A stretch of DNA of 64,000 nucleotides from Variovorax paradoxus (lineage in GTDB: Bacteria; Pseudomonadota; Gammaproteobacteria; Burkholderiales; Burkholderiaceae_C). Each line of letters begins with the position of its first letter. The stretch's first letter is position 1. The stretch covers positions 804,001 to 868,000 of the forward strand of contig NZ_CP102931.1 of assembly GCF_024734665.1 (NCBI RefSeq), in the 5' to 3' direction. Position numbers and translations under genes: made by a program. Of this stretch, positions 1 to 20,482 are shown piece by piece. The notes beneath the pieces were generated by a model, which did no database searches, was not told the DNA's origin, and saw nothing but the letters and a program-made list of their open reading frames with translations.

Positions 1-1063
1 GGCCCAGCGTTTCGTCGAAAGCCTTGACCTGCGCGAGCGCGTTCTGGCCGGTGTTGCCGTCGATCACCAGCAGCACCTCGTGCGGCGCCGTGGCATCGGC
101 CTTGGTGACGACGCGCTTGATCTTCTTCAGCTCGTCCATCAGGTGCAGCTGCGTCGGCAGGCGGCCGGCCGTGTCGACCAGCACCACGTCCTTGCCGCGG
201 GCCTTGCCGGCGTTCACCGCATCGAAACTCACGGCCGACGGATCGCCGCCCTCGTTGCTCACGATCTCGACCGTGTTGCGGTCGGCCCAGACCAGCAGCT
301 GCTCGCGAGCCGCGGCGCGGAAGGTGTCGGCCGCGGCCAGCAGCACCGAGGCGCCTTCGGTGGCCAGGTGCTTGGTGAGCTTGCCGATGGAGGTGGTCTT
401 GCCCGCGCCGTTGACGCCGGCCACCATGATGACGGTGGGCGTGAACTGGCCGATGACCAGCGGCTTCTCGAGCGGCTTGAGCAGGTCGGCCACGGCCTCG
501 GCCAGCAAGACCTTGACCTGCGTGGCGTCGGTGGCCATCTGGCGCTTGACGCGGCCCCGCAGGTCGTCGAGCAGGTATTCGGTCGCCTTGACGCCGGTGT
601 CGGCCATCAGCAGGGCGGATTCGAGTTCTTCGTAAAGCGCGTCGTCGATCTGCGCGTTGACGAACACGGCCTGGATGCCAGTGCCGGTCTTGCGCAGGCC
701 GGTCTTGAGCTTGTCGAACCAGCCCTTGCGCTCGGTGGCGACGGCGATTTCGGCGGCGGGTGCAGGAACCGGCGCGGGAGCTGGGGTCGGAACAGGCGAT
801 GGAACGAATGCGGGGGCTGGTGCGGGTGCCGCTACTGGAGTTGCGACAGGCGCTGGCGCCGGGGAGGGCGCTGGTGCTGGTGCTGGTGGCGCAGCAGGAG
901 CCGGCGTTTCTTCGGCCGCCGGCTTCGAGCCAAACCAGCTCGAAGGCGAGAACACCGAGCGCGCCGGCGCAGCATCGGGGGCGGGCGCCGGTGCGGCTGG
1001 CGGGGTAGGCGCCGGCGTATCGGGGGTTTCGGCAGGCGGTTTTTTCTTGAAGAAACTGAACAT
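1..1063 (-). CDS. ftsY: Signal recognition particle receptor FtsY (partial, 3' end outside window)
   Basis: FtsY is the membrane-associated GTPase receptor that docks SRP-ribosome complexes at the Sec translocon. The reverse strand from the ATG at 1063 begins MFSFFKKK, a short basic start, followed by a long Pro/Ala-rich linker (about residues 9-103). The NG domain follows, with the P-loop GVNGAGKTT near residues 216-224 and the G3 motif DTAGR further on. The frame is still open at base 1, so only about 354 residues are visible and the C-terminal end of the G domain is missing. The linker has replaced the usual acidic A domain. The gene is divergent from the M16 peptidase genes, with only 29 bases between the two starts, so the promoters must be compact or overlap. 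Family assignment is very secure. Confidence 0.95.
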   Translation of the reverse strand, partial: MFSFFKKKPPAETPDTPAPTPPAAPAPAPDAAPARSVFSPSSWFGSKPAAEETPAPAAPPAPAPAPSPAPAPVATPVAAPAPAPAFVPSPVPTPAPAPVPAPAAEIAVATERKGWFDKLKTGLRKTGTGIQAVFVNAQIDDALYEELESALLMADTGVKATEYLLDDLRGRVKRQMATDATQVKVLLAEAVADLLKPLEKPLVIGQFTPTVIMVAGVNGAGKTTSIGKLTKHLATEGASVLLAAADTFRAAAREQLLVWADRNTVEIVSNEGGDPSAVSFDAVNAGKARGKDVVLVDTAGRLPTQLHLMDELKKIKRVVTKADATAPHEVLLVIDGNTGQNALAQVKAFDETLG

Positions 1064-1092
1064 CAGGAGCTTTTTACAATCCGACCCATTCT

Positions 1093-2532
1093 ATGAAACA
1101 CCTCCCGCCACGCCGTGCTGCGTCTGGTGCGGTGCTGGCGATGGCGCTTCTGGCGCCATGGGCCATGCCTGCGCAGGCCCAGACTACCCAACCTTCCGCC
1201 GCCGCAGCCGCGGCGCCCGGCCCTCAGCAATTCACGCTTGCCAACGGCATGACGCTGATCGTCCAGCCCGACCGGCGCTCGCCCACGGCGGTGCAGATGG
1301 TCTGGGTCCGCGTCGGCTCCATCGACGAAGTCGACGGCACCTCCGGTGTGGCACATGCGCTCGAACACATGATGTTCAAGGGCACCAAGGACATCAAGCC
1401 CGGCGAGTTCTCGCGCCGCGTGGCGGCCCTCGGCGGCCAGGAAAACGCCTTCACCACCCGCGACTACACCGGCTACTACCAGCAGATTCCGGTCGGCAGC
1501 CTCGAACAGGTGATGAAGCTCGAATCGGACCGCTTCGCCAACAACCAGTGGCCCGACGACGAGTTCAAGCGCGAGATCGAGGTGGTCAAGGAAGAGCGCC
1601 GCCTGCGCACCGAAGACCAGCCCCGTGCGCTGCTTGGCGAACAGCAGAACGCCGCCGTCTTCACCGCCTCTCCCTACCACCGCCCCGTAGTCGGCTGGAT
1701 GAGCGACCTCGACGCGATGACGCCCGAGGACGCACGCGCCTTCTTCAAGCGCTGGTACGTGCCCGCCAACGCCGTGCTCGTGGTGGCCGGCGATGTCGAC
1801 GTGGCCCAGGTGCGCGCCATGGCCGAGAAGTACTACGGCCGCATCCCTTCGAGCGCCGTGCCTGCGCGCAAGCCGCGCACCGAGCCGGCGCAGCGCGGCA
1901 TCCGCCGAATCGAACTGAAGGCTCCGGCCGAGCAGGCGTATGTGTCGCTGGCCTTCCGCGTGCCGCAGCTCGCCAGCATCGACGACGCGAGCAGCGACGC
2001 CTGGGCGCTGGTGGTGCTGTCCGCCGTGCTCGACGGCTACGCCGGCGCGCGGCTCGACCGCGCGCTTACCCAGGGGCCCGATCGCGTCGCCGATTCGGCC
2101 GGCGCCTATTCGGGCTTCATGGGCCGCGGCCCGCAGCTCTTCGTGCTCGACGGCGTACCAGCCGCCGGCAAGAGCGCCGAGGTGGTCGAGGCCGCGCTGC
2201 GCGCCCAGCTGGCGCGCGTCGCCAAGGACGGCGTGGGCGAAGCCGAATTGGCCCGCGTCAAGACCCAGTGGGTGGCAAGCGAGACCTACAAGCGCGACTC
2301 GGTGATGGCGCAGGCGCGCGAACTCGGCAGCAACTGGGTCCAGGGCCTGCCGCTCGATGCCAGCGAGCGCATCGTCGCCCGGCTGCAATCCGTCACGGCC
2401 GCCCAGGTGCAGGCCGTGGCCGCCAAATACTTCGGTGACGACCAGCTCACGGTCGCCACGCTGCGCCCCCTGCCGCCCGAAGCCAAGCCCCGTGGCCGTG
2501 GCTTCGCGGCGCCCGCAGGCGAAATGCGCTGA
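1093..2532 (+). CDS. M16 family zinc metallopeptidase, catalytic subunit
   Basis: This is a 479-residue pitrilysin-superfamily protease, predicted to be exported. The N terminus is a signal peptide (basic start, hydrophobic stretch, AQAQ cleavage near residue 30). The inverted zinc motif HALEH lies at residues 88-92, and the downstream glutamates of EVVKEERR near 162-170 supply the third metal ligand. The size matches bacterial two-subunit processing-protease-like enzymes. It is followed 17 bases later by a second M16 gene lacking the zinc motif, so the two products probably form a heterodimer, as is known for other M16B pairs. The substrate is not known. Divergent from ftsY, an arrangement I recall as common in Burkholderiales. 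Confidence 0.9.
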   Translation: MKHLPPRRAASGAVLAMALLAPWAMPAQAQTTQPSAAAAAAPGPQQFTLANGMTLIVQPDRRSPTAVQMVWVRVGSIDEVDGTSGVAHALEHMMFKGTKDIKPGEFSRRVAALGGQENAFTTRDYTGYYQQIPVGSLEQVMKLESDRFANNQWPDDEFKREIEVVKEERRLRTEDQPRALLGEQQNAAVFTASPYHRPVVGWMSDLDAMTPEDARAFFKRWYVPANAVLVVAGDVDVAQVRAMAEKYYGRIPSSAVPARKPRTEPAQRGIRRIELKAPAEQAYVSLAFRVPQLASIDDASSDAWALVVLSAVLDGYAGARLDRALTQGPDRVADSAGAYSGFMGRGPQLFVLDGVPAAGKSAEVVEAALRAQLARVAKDGVGEAELARVKTQWVASETYKRDSVMAQARELGSNWVQGLPLDASERIVARLQSVTAAQVQAVAAKYFGDDQLTVATLRPLPPEAKPRGRGFAAPAGEMR

Positions 2533-2549
2533 AAGACAGGTCCCGTTCC

Positions 2550-3926
2550 ATGAAAACTCTCAAGAAGATCGCCCAGTGCGCCCTGCTCGCAGGCGTCACC
2601 GCCATCGTGGGCATCACCAGCGCGCAGGCCGCGCTGCCCATCCAGCAGTGGACGCTGGCCAACGGCGCAAAAATCTACCTCGTAGCGACCAACGCGCTGC
2701 CGATCGTCGACGTGCAGATCGACTTCGACGCCGGCAGCCGCCGCGACCCCGCACCACAGGCTGGCCTGGCCAGCACCACCGCGACCATGGTCGAGAAGGG
2801 CGTGCGCGCCGGCAAGAGCGGCGAACCGGCACTCGACCAGAACGCCCTGGGCGAAGCCTGGGCCGATCTGGGCGCCAGCTTCGACGTGAGCGCCGGCACC
2901 GACCGCACCAGCTACTCGCTGCGCACACTGTCCGACCCTGCGTTGCTGAACAAGGCGGTGGCGCTGGCGTCGCGCGAGATCGGCGAGCCGGCTTTCCCCG
3001 ACGACGTGTGGCTGCGCGAGCGCGAACGCATCAACGCGGCCATCAAGGAAGCCAACACCAAGCCCGCGACTGTTGCAGGCCGCGCGTTCGCACAAGCCGT
3101 GTACGGCGTGCACCCCTACGGCCAGGAGGTGACGGAGGAGACGCTGGCGCGCATCGACACCGCTGCCATGCGCCAGCGCTACCAGCAGCTCATCGTGCCG
3201 TGCCGCGCCAAGCTCAGCATCGTGGGCGCCGTGACGCGCGCCGAGGCCGAGACGATCGCGACCACGCTGCTGTCGCGCCTGCCCGGCCCCGAGGCGTGCA
3301 CGCCGCTGCCGGCCGTTGCAGCTGTAGCCGCGCTCACCGCGCCCAAGGACGAGCGCATTTCCTTCGACTCGGCGCAGGCCCACGTCTTCATCGGGCAGCC
3401 CGGCTATCCGCGCAAGGACCCGGACCACTTCGCGCTCACGCTCGGCAACTACGTGCTCGGCGGCGGCGGGTTCGTCTCGCGCCTGATGAACGAGGTGCGC
3501 GAGAAGCGCGGCCTGACCTACAGCATCTACAGCGGCTTCGCGCCGGGGCTCGAGGCGGGCGCCTTCCGCGTCGGCTTCCAGACCCGGCCCGACCAGGCCG
3601 AAGAGGCCGTGAAGATGTCGCGCGAAGTGCTCGCAAAGTTCGTGGCCGAAGGCCCGACCGCCAGCGAACTGAAGGCCGCGAAGGACAACCTGATCGGCGG
3701 CTTTCCGCTGCTGCTGGACAGCAACCGCAAGCTGATCGGCAACGTCGCCAACATCGCCTGGCACGACCTGCCGCTGGACTACCTCGACACCTGGACCGCG
3801 CGCATGAACGCGGTCACGGCAGCCGACGTCAAGGCCGCCTTCCAGCGCAAGCTGCAGCCCGAGCGCATGGTGACGGTGGTGGTGGGCGGCAAGGACGCCA
3901 GCAAGACAGCCAAGGCGCAGCCCTGA
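2550..3926 (+). CDS. M16 family peptidase-like protein, non-catalytic partner
   Basis: This 458-residue exported paralogue of the preceding gene has a signal peptide ending near AQA at residues 25-27. Where the active subunit has HxxEH, this protein reads ASTTATMVEKG (about residues 74-84), so the zinc site is absent. It keeps the C-terminal substrate-gripping motif REKRGLTYSIYS (about residues 314-325), whose Arg/Tyr pair is typical of non-catalytic M16B subunits. It therefore most likely completes the chamber of a heterodimer with the product of 1093-2532. The two genes are separated by 17 bases and share an operon. A convergent LysR gene begins 7 bases after the stop, with no clear terminator between them. 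Confidence 0.87.
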   Translation: MKTLKKIAQCALLAGVTAIVGITSAQAALPIQQWTLANGAKIYLVATNALPIVDVQIDFDAGSRRDPAPQAGLASTTATMVEKGVRAGKSGEPALDQNALGEAWADLGASFDVSAGTDRTSYSLRTLSDPALLNKAVALASREIGEPAFPDDVWLRERERINAAIKEANTKPATVAGRAFAQAVYGVHPYGQEVTEETLARIDTAAMRQRYQQLIVPCRAKLSIVGAVTRAEAETIATTLLSRLPGPEACTPLPAVAAVAALTAPKDERISFDSAQAHVFIGQPGYPRKDPDHFALTLGNYVLGGGGFVSRLMNEVREKRGLTYSIYSGFAPGLEAGAFRVGFQTRPDQAEEAVKMSREVLAKFVAEGPTASELKAAKDNLIGGFPLLLDSNRKLIGNVANIAWHDLPLDYLDTWTARMNAVTAADVKAAFQRKLQPERMVTVVVGGKDASKTAKAQP

Positions 3927-3933
3927 CCGGCGG

Positions 3934-4851
3934 TCACACCACCAGGGCGTGCGGGCCGCCGCTGGCGGCAGCCCGCACCGCCGCCCCCAGCCGTTCGAGC
4001 AGCCGCGGCGCAGCGCGCGCCTGCTGCCAGTAGAGCGGCACCGGCAGCGTGGAGCCGGGCACCAGCTCCACCAGCCTGCCTTCGCTGATCGCACCGGCCA
4101 CCATGCTGGCCGGATGCATGCCCCAGCCCATGCCCGCGCACGCTGCCTCGACAAAAGCGTTGGGCGAAGGGATCCAGTGCCGCGGCGTCTCGACGTTGCG
4201 GTGGCAGATGCGCCGCACCCAGCGCGTCTGCAGCCGGTCCTTGCGGTCGAACACCAGGCTCGGCGCTTCCGCCAATGTGCGCGCGCCCACGCCCTTGGAG
4301 AAATGTTCGCGCACGAACCCGGGGCTCGCGGCTGCCACGTAATGCATCGTGCCCAGCGCCTCGCTGTTGCACCCCGCCACCGGTTGCGCCAGCGCTGTGA
4401 CCGCCGCGAACACCGCGCCGCTGCGCAGCCGTTCGGCCGTGTGGTCCTGGTCGTCCACCGTGAGATCGAGCAGCGCGGCCTGTTCCTGTGTGGCGAAGGC
4501 CGCGGCGGCGGCCACGAACCAGGTCGCAAGGCTGTCTGCGTTGACGGCCACGCGCACCGTGACGCGCTCGCCGCCCGCTTCGTCGCCGCCCATGCCGAGG
4601 GCGGGCAGGGCCTCGCGCAGCTCGTGCTCCAGCATGCCCACGCGCTCGACGTGCCGGCACAGCTGCAGCCCCGCTTCGGTCGCGACGCAGGGCTGGCCGC
4701 GCACCAGCAGCGCGCCGCCGGTGCGCTCTTCGAGCTGCCTGATGCGCTGCGACACCGCCGAGGGCGTGACATGCAGCGCGCGGGCGGCGCGCTCGAAGCT
4801 GCCCTCACGCACGACGGCGGCGAGGGCGTTCAGGGCGGCATAGTCGAGCAT
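3934..4851 (-). CDS. argP: LysR-family regulator, ArgP (IciA) type
   Basis: A 305-residue LysR-type regulator. The N-terminal winged helix-turn-helix lies at about residues 15-60 (GSFERAARALHVTPSAVSQR), followed by a type-2 periplasmic-binding-like effector domain. The opening MLDYAALNALAAVVREGSFE resembles ArgP, which senses lysine and arginine and activates the argO exporter gene. Divergent 75 bases away is a LysE/ArgO-type exporter gene, the classical partner, which supports this naming over a generic LysR call. Effector and targets are inferred from family and neighbourhood, not seen. Start ATG at 4851. Confidence 0.85.
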   Translation of the reverse strand: MLDYAALNALAAVVREGSFERAARALHVTPSAVSQRIRQLEERTGGALLVRGQPCVATEAGLQLCRHVERVGMLEHELREALPALGMGGDEAGGERVTVRVAVNADSLATWFVAAAAAFATQEQAALLDLTVDDQDHTAERLRSGAVFAAVTALAQPVAGCNSEALGTMHYVAAASPGFVREHFSKGVGARTLAEAPSLVFDRKDRLQTRWVRRICHRNVETPRHWIPSPNAFVEAACAGMGWGMHPASMVAGAISEGRLVELVPGSTLPVPLYWQQARAAPRLLERLGAAVRAAASGGPHALVV

Positions 4852-4926
4852 GGTGATGAAGTAAAACTGAATTGGATTAAGAAAGTTTAGTTTGAATTAA
4901 TACTGTGCGGGCGGCATCCTCGAAGC
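4852..4926. promoter_or_regulatory. Divergent argP/argO promoter region
   Basis: This 75-base gap separates the two divergent starts. It holds an AT-rich stretch (about 4861-4900, with runs such as TTAAGAAAG and TTTGAATTAATA) that stands out in this GC-rich chromosome. Such a segment is expected to carry both promoters and the LysR T-N11-A operator. No exact operator was fixed. Confidence 0.45.
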
Positions 4927-5562
4927 ATGCAAGCCGTACACGTCACCACCGCCTTCGCCAACGGGCTCTTCATGAGCCTGGTCCTCATCGTCGCCATCGG
5001 CGCGCAGAACGCCTATGTGCTGCGCCAGGGATTGCGCCGTGAACACGTGGGCGCGGTGGTGCTGTTCTGCGCGGCCAGCGACGCGGTGCTGATTGGTGCC
5101 GGCGTTGCAGGCATGGCGCAGGCGCTGCAAGGACGGCCGATGCTGGCCACCGTGCTCGCGGGGCTCGGCGCGGCCTTTCTCTGCGGCTACGGGCTCAAGG
5201 CGCTGTGGCGCTCGCGGCAGCCCGCCGCTCTGCAGACCACGGCGCAGGGCGCTTCGCTGTCGCGCGTGGCCGTGGTGGCGCAGGCAGCCGGCTTTACGCT
5301 GCTGAATCCGCACGTCTACCTCGACACGGTGCTGCTCGTGGGCAGCGCGGGCGCGCAGTACGCGGGGCTGCTCAAAGTCTGGTTCGTGGCGGGTGCCGCC
5401 ACGGCGAGCGCGCTGTGGTTCACCTCGCTGGGCTTCGGCGCGCGGCTGCTCGCACCGGTGTTCGCGCGTCCGCGCGCCTGGCAGATGCTCGACGCGCTCA
5501 TTGGGGGCACCATGCTTCTGTTGGCCGCCATGCTGGCACAGCGAGCGCTTGCAGGGCTCTGA
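4927..5562 (+). CDS. argO: LysE/ArgO-type amino acid exporter
   Basis: A 211-residue inner-membrane protein of the LysE/RhtB superfamily, which exports basic amino acids by proton-motive force. Five to six hydrophobic segments are evident (for example around residues 9-30, 40-60, 70-95, 115-135, 145-170 and 185-205). The N-terminal signature IGAQNAYVLRQGLRREH is typical of the ArgO/LysE branch, and the central LLNPHVYLDTVLL carries the conserved NPxxYLD element. Divergent from the ArgP-type gene, its likely activator. The real substrate (arginine, lysine or a toxic analogue such as canavanine) cannot be read from the sequence. Confidence 0.88.
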   Translation: MQAVHVTTAFANGLFMSLVLIVAIGAQNAYVLRQGLRREHVGAVVLFCAASDAVLIGAGVAGMAQALQGRPMLATVLAGLGAAFLCGYGLKALWRSRQPAALQTTAQGASLSRVAVVAQAAGFTLLNPHVYLDTVLLVGSAGAQYAGLLKVWFVAGAATASALWFTSLGFGARLLAPVFARPRAWQMLDALIGGTMLLLAAMLAQRALAGL

Positions 5563-5594
5563 AAGCGGGCACGCGGCGGCGTTAAGCTCGCCGC

Positions 5595-6245
5595 ATGCCC
5601 CAGAAAGCCGCCCCCGCCTCCCGTCCCGCCGCACCCAAGCCCAAGCGCCCGTCGAAGCCCAGCGAGGTGCGCATCGTCGGCGGCGAATGGAAGCGCACCC
5701 GCCTCGCCGTGGCCGACAAGCCCGGCCTGCGCCCCACACCCGATCGCGTGCGCGAAACCCTGTTCAACTGGCTCGCGAGCCTGGCCGGCGCTGGTGGCGG
5801 CGAACTGCCGGGATGGCAGTGCGTCGACGCCTTCGCGGGCACCGGCGCACTCGGCTTCGAGGCCGCATCGCGCGGCGCGGCGAACGTGCTGCTTTGCGAG
5901 CAGGACGCCGCGCTGGTCGCGCAGCTCCAGGCCGCCAAGACCAAGCTGAGTGCCGAGGCTGTGCGCATCGAGCGCGGCAACGGCGTCACCGCGCTCGAAC
6001 GCGCGCCGGCCGGCAGCCTCGATGCCGTGTTCCTCGATCCGCCCTTCGACAGCACAGCCCTCTACGAACCGGCCCTGCGCGCCGCCGCCCGCGCGCTGCG
6101 TGCCGGCGGCTCGGTGTACCTCGAAGCGCCGCGCCGCTGGAGCGACGAAGAACTGGCCGCCTTCGGCCTCGTCGGATTCCGTTACCTGAAGGCCGGCGCC
6201 GTGCACGCCCATCTGTTGCGGCTGGCTGCCGAGGGGACTGCATAA
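5595..6245 (+). CDS. rsmD: 16S rRNA (guanine(966)-N(2))-methyltransferase RsmD
   Basis: RsmD methylates N2 of G966 in 16S rRNA during 30S assembly. The 216-residue protein has a Pro/Lys-rich N-terminal tail (residues 1-22), then [12 protein letters not shown], the [15 protein letters not shown] element, the SAM-binding loop [13 protein letters not shown] (78-90) and the catalytic DPPF (148-151). Length and motif order match the family, apart from a slightly longer N terminus. It lies directly upstream of coaD (43 bases), the common rsmD-coaD pairing. Confidence 0.95.
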
Positions 6246-16705: not shown

Positions 16706-17332
16706 ATGGATGCGCCACCCCCTACCACCCCACCGGAATGGCTGCGCCATTCCCGTTTCGACGACGCGCAGGCGATCTTTTCGGGCACCTTGTTCGTCGC
16801 CATCGCCATGATGCTGTTCGGCCAGGCGGGCCTGCTCACGGGCGGCACGGCCGGCGTCGCGTTTCTGTTGCACTACGCCACCGGCGTGAGCTTCGGCAAG
16901 CTGTTCTTCCTGGTCAACCTGCCGTTCTACTGGTTCGCATGGCGCCACATGGGCCGGGCGTTCACGATCAAGACTTTCTCTGCGATTGCCTTGCTCTCGC
17001 TGATGACCGATTGGGCGCCGCGCTACCTGTCGATCGACTCCTTGCACCCGGCCTTTGCGGCCGTGCTCGGTGGCTTGCTGCTGGGCACTGGCTGTCTGTT
17101 CCTTGCCCGCCATCGCGCAAGTCTGGGCGGTGCGACCGTGTTGACGCTGTATCTGCAGGAAAAGCGCGGCTGGCCTGCTGGCAAGGTGCAGATCGGTATC
17201 GACTGCACGGTGGTGTTGCTTGCCCTGTTCGTGATTCCGCCGCAGCGTGTGGGGTGGTCGGTGCTGGCGGCTGTGGTTATGGGGCTGTTTCTCTGGATCA
17301 ACCACAAGCCTGGAAGGTATGCGGCGACTTGA
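16706..17332 (+). CDS. YitT-family membrane protein
   Basis: A 208-residue integral membrane protein with about five or six hydrophobic helices. The first segment AIFSGTLFVAIAMMLFGQAG and the motif LLTGGTAGVAFLLHYATG are typical of the YitT (DUF161) family, often described as a 5-TM permease-like family of unknown function. The C-terminal DUF2179 domain of Bacillus relatives is absent. Start ATG at 16706; earlier in-frame codons overlap the LysR gene in another phase. It ends just before the tandem hairpin structure and converges with the amidase gene. Confidence 0.82.
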   Translation: MDAPPPTTPPEWLRHSRFDDAQAIFSGTLFVAIAMMLFGQAGLLTGGTAGVAFLLHYATGVSFGKLFFLVNLPFYWFAWRHMGRAFTIKTFSAIALLSLMTDWAPRYLSIDSLHPAFAAVLGGLLLGTGCLFLARHRASLGGATVLTLYLQEKRGWPAGKVQIGIDCTVVLLALFVIPPQRVGWSVLAAVVMGLFLWINHKPGRYAAT

Positions 17333-17352
17333 GCTTGCTGTTCCGGGGTGCG

Positions 17353-17445
17353 TGCGAATGACACCGGGTGCTCCCCTCCGCGAATGTCCCCCGCCTTCGG
17401 CCTCCTCCTTTATTTCGCTGCGGGGAGCACCCGATGCCATTCGCA
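17353..17445. repeat. Hairpin 1 of tandem structure: 23-bp stem closing a 47-base conserved core
   Basis: The left arm 17353-17375 and right arm 17423-17445 are inverted repeats matching at 21 of 23 positions. On the minus strand both irregular pairs become G.U. They enclose a 47-base core (17376-17422), which reappears inverted at 17514-17561. On the minus strand the core reads CGCAGCGAAATAAAGGAGG at its 5' end. It sits in the convergent YitT/amidase gap, where it could end both transcripts, but it has no terminal U-run of the usual type. Confidence 0.85.
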
Positions 17446-17446
17446 C

Positions 17447-17489
17447 ATGGACGCAGCGCTTATGCCGGCCGATCGACCGCTGCGTCCAT
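17447..17489. repeat. Hairpin 2 (central): 12-bp perfect inverted repeat
   Basis: ATGGACGCAGCG at 17447-17458 is exactly complementary to CGCTGCGTCCAT at 17478-17489, leaving a 19-base loop. It begins one base after hairpin 1 and ends one base before hairpin 3, so it occupies the centre of a larger mirror-like arrangement in which the flanking cores face opposite directions. Confidence 0.85.
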
Positions 17490-17490
17490 C

Positions 17491-17584
17491 GATCACGTCG
17501 ATGGTGTGCTCTGCGCAGCGAAATAAAGGAGGAGGCCGCAGGCCGGGGGACATTCGCGGAGCAGAGTACGCCGTCGGCGTGATC
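17491..17584. repeat. Hairpin 3 of tandem structure: inverted copy of the conserved core in a different 23-bp stem
   Basis: The left arm 17491-17513 and right arm 17562-17584 pair at 19 of 23 positions by Watson-Crick rules, and the other four are all G.U on the plus strand. The enclosed 48 bases (17514-17561) are the reverse complement of the hairpin 1 core, with two substitutions and one inserted base. The outer stem sequence differs from that of hairpin 1 at most distal positions, yet remains self-complementary. Only the loop-proximal GTGCTC segment is shared between the two stems. Confidence 0.85.
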
Positions 17585-17609
17585 GCTCCCCGAACAGCAC
17601 CAAACAGCG

Positions 17610-18998
17610 TCAAGGCGCAACAGGCCAGGGCCGCTGCGGCTCCCGAATCTGCTCAAACGCACGCGAAACGCGCAGCACTCCGAGATCGTCGAAGCGCTGC
17701 CCCGCAATCTGAAGACCGATCGGCAATCCACTCGCCGAGTACCCGCAGTTGACCGAAGCCGCCGGCTGCTCCGACATGTTGAATGGCACCGTGAACCCGA
17801 TGTGCTCCAGTGGCCGCAACGGGTCATTCGTGGGCGAGGGCGCCTCGGCCGCCGCCGGCATGTTCGGCGACACCGGCGAGATGACGTAGTCGAACCGCGC
17901 GCAGGCGCTCACCGCCGCCACGCGCGTCGCATGGAACTGGCTGAAGCTGCGGAACACGTGTTCGCCGCTGAATTCCGCCGCACTCTCAGCCCATTCGCGG
18001 ATGTAGGGCAGCACCTTCGAGCGCTGGTCGGCGCGCAGGCCCTTCATGTCCACCAGCGAGCGCATGCGCCACAGGTGGTCCATGCCGTCGAGCAACGCCT
18101 GCGACATGAAAGGCTGCATCGGTTCGATGATGGCGCCTGCCTTTTCCAGCAGGCGTGCTGCGTGTTCGACCGCTGTCTGGATTTCAGGTTCTACCGCCAG
18201 TCCGCAGCCCGCGTCGAGCAGCAGGCCGATGCGCAGGCCGCGCAGATGGTCGGGGGACACGTCGAAGCCGGCCCAATCGATGTCCTGCGGCGGCAGGTTC
18301 ATGCTGTCGCGCGCATCGGGCTTCGACAGCGCCTGCATCGCCAACGCGGCGTCGCCCACGGAGCGCGTCATCGGTCCTGCAGCGCGGCCCATGTACGGTG
18401 GATCGATCGGAATGCGCCCCAGGCTCGGCTTGAGCGTGAAGATGCCGCACCAGCTCGCGGGCAAGCGCAGCGAGCCGCCGATGTCCGTGCCCAGGTGCAG
18501 CGGGCCGTAGCCCGCGGCCGTTGCGGCGCCCGCACCCGCGCTGGAGCCGCCCGGCGTCAGGCGCAGATCCCACGGATTGCGTGCCAGCGTGTGAAAGCTC
18601 GACAAGCCCGAAGACAACATGCCGTAGTCCGGCATCGTCGTCTTGCTCACGATCACCGCGCCGGCTTCTTTCAAGCGTGCGGCTGGCGGCGCATCGGCAG
18701 CCGCGGGCTTCAGGTCGACAGCGGCAGTGCCGGCTGGCATCGGATCGCCGCGCGTTGCGATGTTTTCCTTGATGGTGGCCGGCACGCCGTCGAGCGGGCC
18801 GAGCGCATCGCCGCGCTGCCAGCGCACTTCCGAAGCGCGCGCCTGTTCGAGCGCGGCCTCGGGCCTGAAGAGCCAGGTGGCCTGCAGGTGCGGCTCCCAG
18901 CGCTCGATCTGAGCGATCACGGCCTGCGTGACCTCGACCGGCGAGAGCTTGCGGTCGCGGTAGGCCGCGGCAAGCTCCTGTGCGGACAGGTCGTTCAA
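17610..18998 (-). CDS. Amidase (amidase-signature family)
   Basis: An amidase-signature hydrolase acting on carboxylic amides. From the TTG start at 18998 the product is 462 residues. The Ser-cisSer-Lys triad is visible: Lys77 in PATIKENI, Ser at about 152 in TPGGSSAGAG, and nucleophile Ser176 in TDIGGSLRLP. The TTG overlaps the stop of the upstream binding-protein gene as TTGA, implying coupled translation. A GTG at 19004 is an alternative start. As the last gene of the peptide ABC operon, it probably processes an imported amide or peptide. It could be confused with GatA, but no gatB or gatC is nearby and the context is catabolic. Confidence 0.9.
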   Translation of the reverse strand: MNDLSAQELAAAYRDRKLSPVEVTQAVIAQIERWEPHLQATWLFRPEAALEQARASEVRWQRGDALGPLDGVPATIKENIATRGDPMPAGTAAVDLKPAAADAPPAARLKEAGAVIVSKTTMPDYGMLSSGLSSFHTLARNPWDLRLTPGGSSAGAGAATAAGYGPLHLGTDIGGSLRLPASWCGIFTLKPSLGRIPIDPPYMGRAAGPMTRSVGDAALAMQALSKPDARDSMNLPPQDIDWAGFDVSPDHLRGLRIGLLLDAGCGLAVEPEIQTAVEHAARLLEKAGAIIEPMQPFMSQALLDGMDHLWRMRSLVDMKGLRADQRSKVLPYIREWAESAAEFSGEHVFRSFSQFHATRVAAVSACARFDYVISPVSPNMPAAAEAPSPTNDPLRPLEHIGFTVPFNMSEQPAASVNCGYSASGLPIGLQIAGQRFDDLGVLRVSRAFEQIREPQRPWPVAP

Positions 18999-20482
18999 CC
19001 CCACGACAGCGCCGACAGGTCGTTCACGAAGATCGGGTTCTCTTTCCAGATGCCCTTGACGTTCTTCTTTGCGACGGTCGGGAACTGCGGCTGGTACAGG
19101 AAGCCGTTGGCCGCGTCGGTGGCCAGCAGCTTCTGCGCGTCGCCCAGCAGCTTGTTGCGCTCGGTGGCGTTGGCCGTGGACTTGATCTTGTCGAACAGCG
19201 TGTTGAAGGCCTTCGACTGGTAGCCCCAGTAGTAGTCCGACTTGGCGTAGTTGCCGAGATCGAAGGGCTCCACGTGCGAGACGATCGACAGGTCGTAGTC
19301 CTTGTTGCCGTAGGTGCCGCTGAGCCATTGGGCCCACTCCACGTTCTGCACCTTCACCGTGATGCCGATCTTTGCGAGCTCGGCCACGATCACCTCGCCG
19401 CCCTGGCGTGCATATGGAGGCGGCGGCAGCGTCATGGTGAGTTCGAGCGGCGTCTTCACGCCGGCTTCGGCCAGCAGCTTCTTGGCCTTCTCGATGTCGA
19501 AGGGGTTGATGCCCGTGGTGTCGACATAGCCCGCAGCACCCGGCACGTAGTGGCTGCCGATGGGCACGCCGAAGCCGTCGGCCGCGCCTTCGATCACGGC
19601 CTTGCGGTCGATGGCGGCAAGAATCGCGCGGCGCACGCGCACGTCGTCCAGCGGCTTCTTCTTGTTGTTGATCGAAAGAATCGTCTTGGCGCGCGAACCG
19701 GCCAGGATCACCTGGAACTGCGGGTTCGCCTTGAACTGCGGCACCACGCGCGTGCCGATGCGCGCGAACACGTCGACGTCGCCCGACAGCATGGCGGCGG
19801 CCTGCGCGGCGGTGTCGGAGATGAAGCGGAACGTGACCTTGTTGATCTTCGCGGTGGCGGGGCTGCGAAAGCCTTCCCACTTGCTCAGCGTGATCGACGA
19901 GCCCTTGGCCCAGCTGTCGAGCTTGTAGGGGCCGGTGCCGACCGGCTTGGTGGCGTTGCCCTCGGCGCTCTTGGGCTCGACGATCACGGCCGTGGCCTGG
20001 CCCAGCACGAAGGGCAGGTCGGGGTCGATCTCCTTGTTGATGATGACGACGGTGTAGTCGTCCACCACCTGCGTTGCGAGGTTGGCGAAGGTGCGCTTGT
20101 CCTTGTTGGTGCTCTTCTCGCCGCCAGCGCGGTCGAACGAGAACTTCACGGTGGCCGCATTGAAGGGCTCGCCGTTCTGGTACTTCACGCCGCGGCGGAG
20201 CTTGAAGGTGTAGGTCTTCAGGTCGGGCGAGATTTCCCAGCTCTCGGCCAGCAGCGGCGTGACGCTGCCGTCGGCGTTGATCTTGGTGAGCGTCTCGAGG
20301 ATGTTGTAGTGCACCACCTCGGCGATGGCGGCGGCGGCGCCGGTGGTCGGGTCGAGCCCCGGCGGCTCGAGCGCCATGCCGATCACGATGGCGTCCTTCC
20401 GGCCCTGCGCCATGCCGGCAAGCGGGGTGGCCAGCGCAACGGTGGCGCCAGCGGTGGTGAGAAGGGTGCGGCGGTTCAACAT
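18995..20482 (-). CDS. Peptide/amide ABC transporter substrate-binding protein (family 5), copy 1
   Basis: A 495-residue DppA/OppA-type (SBP family 5) protein. The ATG at 20482 opens an export signal with a twin-arginine start (MLNRRTLLTT, then a hydrophobic stretch to MAQG), so Tat or Sec export to the periplasm is possible. Family features include EPPGLDPTTGAAAAIAEVV, the LAESWEISPDLKTYTFKLR segment and YQNGEPFNA. It is a close paralogue of the next gene upstream (20711-22204) along nearly its full length. A 228-base gap separates the two, and the amidase start overlaps its stop. Ligand unknown. Confidence 0.92.
   Translation of the reverse strand: MLNRRTLLTTAGATVALATPLAGMAQGRKDAIVIGMALEPPGLDPTTGAAAAIAEVVHYNILETLTKINADGSVTPLLAESWEISPDLKTYTFKLRRGVKYQNGEPFNAATVKFSFDRAGGEKSTNKDKRTFANLATQVVDDYTVVIINKEIDPDLPFVLGQATAVIVEPKSAEGNATKPVGTGPYKLDSWAKGSSITLSKWEGFRSPATAKINKVTFRFISDTAAQAAAMLSGDVDVFARIGTRVVPQFKANPQFQVILAGSRAKTILSINNKKKPLDDVRVRRAILAAIDRKAVIEGAADGFGVPIGSHYVPGAAGYVDTTGINPFDIEKAKKLLAEAGVKTPLELTMTLPPPPYARQGGEVIVAELAKIGITVKVQNVEWAQWLSGTYGNKDYDLSIVSHVEPFDLGNYAKSDYYWGYQSKAFNTLFDKIKSTANATERNKLLGDAQKLLATDAANGFLYQPQFPTVAKKNVKGIWKENPIFVNDLSALSWG

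Follow-up and report, generated by a model that had tools for sequence, protein, structure and literature searches.

A widespread family of paired, strand-specific hairpins with signs of mobility in Variovorax paradoxus and its relatives

The structure that fills the junction between a yitT-type gene and an amidase gene of Variovorax paradoxus is probably a non-autonomous mobile DNA element, similar to REPINs and MITEs, whose hairpins would be recognised as single-stranded DNA by an enzyme acting in trans. It lies in a window of 64,000 nt (contig NZ_CP102931.1, positions 804,001 to 868,000; Table 1). Mobility, as insertion, is well supported, and we infer recognition as single-stranded DNA from the strand bias of both hairpins and from their GNA loops. 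The element, about 260-320 bp long, consists of short terminal inverted repeats around two large inverted hairpins, and its conserved unit is a hairpin of about 96 nt comprising a 25-bp stem of free sequence, a GCA/GGA loop, a 5-bp stem, a purine loop and a small terminal hairpin.

Table 1. Coordinates of the element, its flanking genes and related loci
Feature	Position	Strand	Basis or remark
Flanking gene, YitT family membrane protein (PF02588)	16706..17332	+	gene calling, Pfam
Flanking gene, amidase (PF01425)	17610..19004	-	gene calling, Pfam
Left terminal inverted repeat GTTCCGGGGTGC	17340..17351	+	partner at right end; family consensus GTTCRGGGCGCG
Left hairpin unit (L type)	17352..17446	core on -	model R1 match 99.0 bits; L-type stem counts, 131 copies
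Spacer with middle hairpin private to few copies	17447..17489	+	
Right hairpin unit (R type)	17490..17585	core on +	model R1 match 103.4 bits; R-type stem counts, 131 copies
Core string CGCAGCGAAATAAAGGAGGAGG, left hairpin	17401..17422	-	
Core string CGCAGCGAAATAAAGGAGGAGG, right hairpin	17514..17535	+	
Right terminal inverted repeat GCTCCCCGAAC	17585..17595	+	CCCYGAA motif
Site A cargo	L288 (G000:C1:4331900-4336000) 640-3300		low-G+C accessory genes between hairpins
Site B cargo	L289 (G000:C1:1452700-1459700) 560-6240		low-G+C accessory genes between hairpins
89-residue hypothetical protein genes	L289 836-1102, L288 2751-3017, L459 9001-9270		
RAYT-like Y1 gene of the same genome	L031 1171-1866 (G000:C1:5388587-5388922)		no inverted repeat around

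A first-pass annotation of the window had noted three back-to-back hairpins (17353-17445, 17447-17489 and 17491-17584), and we found all three present as described, together with its six wobble pairs, which are indeed all G.U on the core strand (two and four G.T in the outer stems, with the core reading CGCAGCGAAATAAAGG) and read A.C on the opposite strand. Each outer stem also has one G.A and one A.G pair adjoining the core. Folded as DNA, the core strands were more stable than shuffled sequences (z -6.2 and -9.0), the opposite strands giving weaker values (z -3.0 and -6.0), and the 22-mer core occurs twice in the window versus 0.00 expected from shuffles. The whole 261 nt folded as RNA prefers one long core-to-core hairpin (-177.6 kcal/mol) over three separate ones, and the two outer hairpins are supported by conservation rather than by folding energy. 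Such conservation holds only for the outer hairpins, which pair at 21-23 of 23 stem positions in all 25 full-length copies of the same genome (an A.C on the + strand of the left stem being scored as G.U of the core strand), whereas the middle hairpin, with 12 of 12 arm pairs at the window copy, retains just 5-7 pairs in 12 of these 25 and is thus not a family feature.

The core is far from single-copy. A BLAST search of positions 17340-17600 against the 7.29-Mb genome that carries the window gave 25 full-length and 15 partial forward matches, and the same genome, scanned for a 22-base core pattern allowing at most 3 mismatches, yielded 34 + 31 = 65 sites (reversed control, 0). Matches to the element were found in 67 of 81 Variovorax genomes. 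Within the bacterial family the exact 17-base core turned up in 13 of 200 genomes (9 of 141 genera), and order-wide in 2 of 200 genomes, both from that same family. With a covariance model at E 0.001, 141 of 299 genomes and 78 of 141 genera of the bacterial family had matches, of which the weak ones may be any long hairpin, since model R1 gives as much as 49.9 bits to the opposite strand of genuine hairpins; about 74 of the 299 had a strong match (E below 1e-12, counted by hand, one genome at exactly 1.0e-12 being excluded). Neighbouring units stood in -+ order in 150 of 153 pairs. Among the 74 of 131 paired elements that carried a genome label (the other 57 did not), the nearest neighbour lay in the copy's own genome for 44, versus a mean of 9.4 and a maximum of 21 over 2000 shuffles. 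No two copies among those compared were identical (best 96%), and recent jumps were not seen. Neither phages nor viral contigs gave a match to the element, and its plasmid matches are Variovorax megaplasmids. In another genus, an ORF lies between two units that are spaced 650 nt apart (L387, G020:C14, 566-1214).

The stem-loop plan is retained in all 29 distant units short enough to fold, with a terminal hairpin of very variable length; the GCA/GGA loop is missing in a few distant units, and one (L362) pairs straight through. The internal purine loop (AUNAAGGNGGA/GGNGGACA) is near-invariant, and the Shine-Dalgarno-like string remarked on earlier is present within it, although no tie to ribosomes was seen. 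Across 127 distinct rows (from 150 aligned of 176 matches, some being opposite-strand rows), the 5-bp stem reads GCGAA/TTCGC in 82, GCGGC/GCCGC in 20 and GCGAC/GTCGC in 10. As for the element ends, of 132 canonical copies 125 have an aligned left TTCRGGG motif and 117 an aligned right CCCYGAA motif, which leaves 7 and 15 copies, respectively, without a match. In an alignment of 49 diverse units, thinned from 352 after removing 5 with less than 60% pairing and hence leaning towards pairing, 95.3% of cells pair and 28 of 32 pairs change on both sides; cells with two-sided change numbered 428 (122.7 when shuffled, at most 109 when slid), and the covariation score was 0.734 (0.199 shuffled, at most 0.174 slid).

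The strand preference of the wobble pairs is equally marked. Among 131 of the 158 paired elements (27 with other stem types being excluded), G.T to A.C counts were 285:13 in the left hairpin and 343:10 in the right, so that each core strand is kept foldable. Wobble positions 10, 16 and 17 are common to both hairpins despite their different stem sequences, and stem position 10 in 368 units is G.T in 245, G-C in 90, A-T in 28, G.A in 5 and A.C in 0. The strand-specific wobble and the covariation support the earlier proposal that folding has been maintained as RNA or single-stranded DNA, and they show that both core strands stay foldable, with the same internal loop, through selection or a copying process. 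Some of the compensatory changes could arise without selection, by template-switch repair of quasi-palindromes, although such repair would not favour G.T over A.C. Within the internal loop the middle bases 41 and 74 exchange as a pair: of 117 cases they are A/G in 93, G/A in 16, C/G in 4, A/A in 2, T/G in 1 and A/T in 1, and G/G in 0 versus 13.4 expected under independence. A two-tetrad quadruplex with free middle bases was rejected on account of this pair-like covariation. In 57 distinct terminal hairpins, the triloops are GNA in 34 of 45 and closed by C-G in 43 of 45, and a GNRA tetraloop occurs once. C(GNA)G loops are unusually stable in DNA, and RNA would be expected to favour GNRA tetraloops.

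Insertion is seen where the same gene junction occurs with and without the element. At the yitT/amidase site, both flanks were found in 21 of 29 relatives, which by eye had two cores in 4, one core in 3, remnants in 7 and nothing in 7, the empty junctions measuring 7-26 nt; since the site is occupied in many relatives, some members of the family are old and have been inherited vertically. We also sought the flanking genes of 12 other sites of the window's genome in 3 relatives (L014 gave no locus and L009 just one), and the element was absent in 26 of 30 site-by-genome cells from the 11 sites with data, where the same two genes mostly lie 1-39 nt apart. Nine of these 11 sites lacked the element in every relative seen, whereas site L024 was filled in 1 of 3 relatives and L010 in 3 of 3, once as a remnant. 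Boundaries were blurred in 10 empty-site alignments. With many copies, empty sites and copies most alike within one genome, the mobile palindromic repeat family considered in the first-pass annotation is supported. Several side observations concern the sites themselves: the flanks are G/T-rich on the left and A/C-rich on the right (for example at window positions 17320-17340), GTTCRGGG-like strings are repeated outside the element ends in several copies, and two empty sites have GTTCAGGG/GTTCGG-like strings. At the junction corresponding to site L003, one relative (L312, G404) has an unrelated 161-nt palindromic insert (CGCAAGGGACGCGAACG...) where the window's genome has the element; this insert may represent a second repeat family that uses the junction.

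The element also has a preferred gene context. The 25 full copies of the window's genome comprise 19 between tandem genes in one orientation, 3 tandem in the other, 3 convergent and 0 divergent, and the 15 partial copies 8 and 3 tandem by orientation, 2 convergent, 1 divergent and one undetermined (loci L072 and L073 were omitted from this 40-copy count), such that the preferred orientation prevails 27:6 over all tandem copies; the window's own gene junctions are 39 tandem, 9 convergent and 8 divergent. In relatives, 99 copies comprised 65 tandem in the preferred orientation, 5 tandem in the other, 29 convergent and 0 divergent, and the right end adjoined a stop codon in 94 of the 99. Of 89 tandem copies, 51 have an ATG no more than 6 nt past the upstream stop, versus 2 of 33 convergent copies (4 of 89 at either control distance), and 23 have a TGA no more than 4 nt ahead of the start (controls 5 and 3), with both present in 15; in these counts from relatives, same-site copies in sister genomes are counted separately. 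We read the ATG and TGA as a fossil stop-start junction left on both sides. The bases past the extra ATG match the downstream gene no better than chance (125 versus 116.4, sd 8.1), so that a true target duplication is unproven.

Some elements carry genes. Three pairs of partial copies in the window's genome are each one element whose spacer is interrupted, near aligned position 17463-17490, by an insert of 0.6 kb carrying an LprI-like gene, of 2.7 kb (site A) or of 5.7 kb (site B). This cargo has 53-62% G+C versus 62-68% in the flanks; ten cargo ORFs had no Pfam match, one weak partial match was to the defence family PD-T7-3 (E 7e-7), and no transposase match was found among the part of the cargo ORFs submitted. 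In 15 relatives, site A had no element in 5 (48-72 nt), an element without cargo in 2 (300 and 350 nt), one core in 2, a core plus DNA homologous to part of the cargo in 5, and in 1 a different content (1.7 kb, no core). In 12 relatives, site B had none in 5 (12-31 nt), a core plus DNA largely unlike the cargo of the window's genome in 4, and no core within 1.5 kb in 3, with G411 having a core at the far end; three loci (two matches at 75% and one of 39 bases) were left out of this survey of the two sites. In two relatives (G445 and G443) the two hairpins of site B are 3.3 and 2.9 kb apart, and the inserts they enclose align with each other and, at their ends only, with the cargo of the window's genome. 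Site B holds different content in different species. An 89-residue Variovorax protein without a Pfam or PHROG match is encoded by a cargo end piece common to sites A, B and a third site (L342). Of 12 distinct places (22 rows), 11 have its gene 486-536 nt from a hairpin, a link that is biased since most loci examined were chosen for having a hairpin; a plasmid copy of the gene has no hairpin nearby. The protein family has 146 relatives, with several clusters in single strains.

These sites allow a different reading, which we regard as quite unlikely, in which the hairpins would be the ends of a single-strand-recognised gene-cassette system. Here a recombinase would read the GGNGG/GGNGG loop of each folded core strand, insert units at stop/start junctions of operons and load or swap foreign cargo between the hairpins. 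Depending on the Variovorax species, the same site would be vacant, hold an element without cargo or hold different gene sets, and paired G tracts could, speculatively, dock two hairpins through G-rich tetrads. The integron attC site is likewise a single-strand hairpin with a variable terminal part and an unpaired internal loop, located next to stop codons, and the element shares its folded form, variable terminal part, internal loop and stop-codon neighbourhood, as well as cargo at sites A and B. However, no GTT/AAC box motif was seen in the element and its hairpins are inverted pairs rather than direct arrays. We regard it as most improbable that the element is a true REPIN, in which the single-copy RAYT (Y1 transposase) of the host would mobilise two REP-like units. 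REPs and BIMEs are described in PMC2817692 and PMC3733652. Like a REPIN or BIME, which are inverted REP dimers, the element is intergenic and present in many copies, with two inverted strand-specific hairpins and a spacer, it leaves single-unit remnants, and its copies are similar within a genome. REP units, according to PMC3733652, are 20-40 bp long with a GTAG or CGTC tag and short 8-13-bp stems, whereas the units here are about 96 nt with a 25-bp stem, a purine internal loop and a terminal hairpin, and the element has terminal inverted repeats outside its hairpins, cargo at some sites and no link to Y1. In all, 78 of 81 Variovorax genomes have a single RAYT-like Y1 gene, nearly always once and kept vertically as if domesticated, yet across 299 genomes no association of Y1 transposases with the element was found (58 of 74 strong-match genomes versus 164 of 225 others, p 0.44), no unit lay beside the 21 Variovorax RAYT genes read, the element-rich G020 has no Y1 candidate at all, and G429 and G413, which carry elements, gave no Y1 match. 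A RAYT as mobilising partner was rejected on this lack of association, neighbourhood and co-occurrence. TIRtrons, in which long terminal inverted repeats flank a RAYT gene (PMC3733652, section 16), resemble the element in that long, partly self-complementary inverted repeats occur as dispersed dimers, but no transposase gene was found inside or beside any copy checked; Variovorax does not occur in the passages of PMC3733652. The element is short and non-autonomous like a MITE, with terminal inverted repeats (GTTCRGGGCGCG at both ends) and empty sites, but no parent insertion sequence was found, no genes lie between close unit pairs, no autonomous parent element came to light, and the hairpins, not the terminal repeats, are its conserved part.

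Two further explanations place the function in RNA or in transcription. A structured RNA at gene ends, whose core-strand hairpin would act in mRNA 3' regions or leaders as a stabiliser, a processing site or a protein-binding site kept by selection, with copies spread by an unrelated process, would account for the strand-specific G.U, the preferred orientation versus transcription (19:3 and 27:6 in the window's genome, 65:5 in relatives) and the location just after stop codons. However, that orientation makes just the left hairpin sense, yet the right one keeps its bias (343:10), the triloops are mostly GNA with one GNRA tetraloop in 57, and a search of 17000-18000 against Rfam returned five weak matches (four microRNA models and one sRNA), none at gathering score, such that its families were rejected; we consider this explanation rather unlikely. 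A transcription terminator acting in both directions, or a boundary element, that selection retains between genes would fit the great stability of the hairpins and the complete lack of copies between divergent genes (99 copies in relatives and 25 full copies in the window's genome), but is very unlikely, as the genes on either side of most copies are co-directional and adjoin each other in relatives, and neither the conserved internal loop nor the wobble positions are needed for termination. The complex terminator of the first-pass annotation is not supported either, as no U-run follows the element in either direction, the downstream flanks being A/C-rich.

We return to the mobile DNA element as the probable explanation. 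An enzyme supplied in trans would recognise the core strand of each hairpin as single-stranded DNA, as with REPs in REPINs, and the element would insert into intergenic or stop/start junctions. Insertion would probably leave a short duplication of the stop-start junction, so that both neighbouring genes survive. The spacer between the hairpins can hold cargo. We found no published account of this family in a search of the open-access journal literature. It is widespread and apparently unnamed, with an unusually explicit single-strand code in its wobble positions, G.A pairs and purine loop, and its natural empty, filled and cargo-bearing sites are useful for finding the enzyme of the element. 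How large hairpin repeats spread in the absence of a RAYT could be tested directly on this family, and the exchange of cargo, if true, would give accessory genes one more way of settling in soil and plant-associated bacteria.
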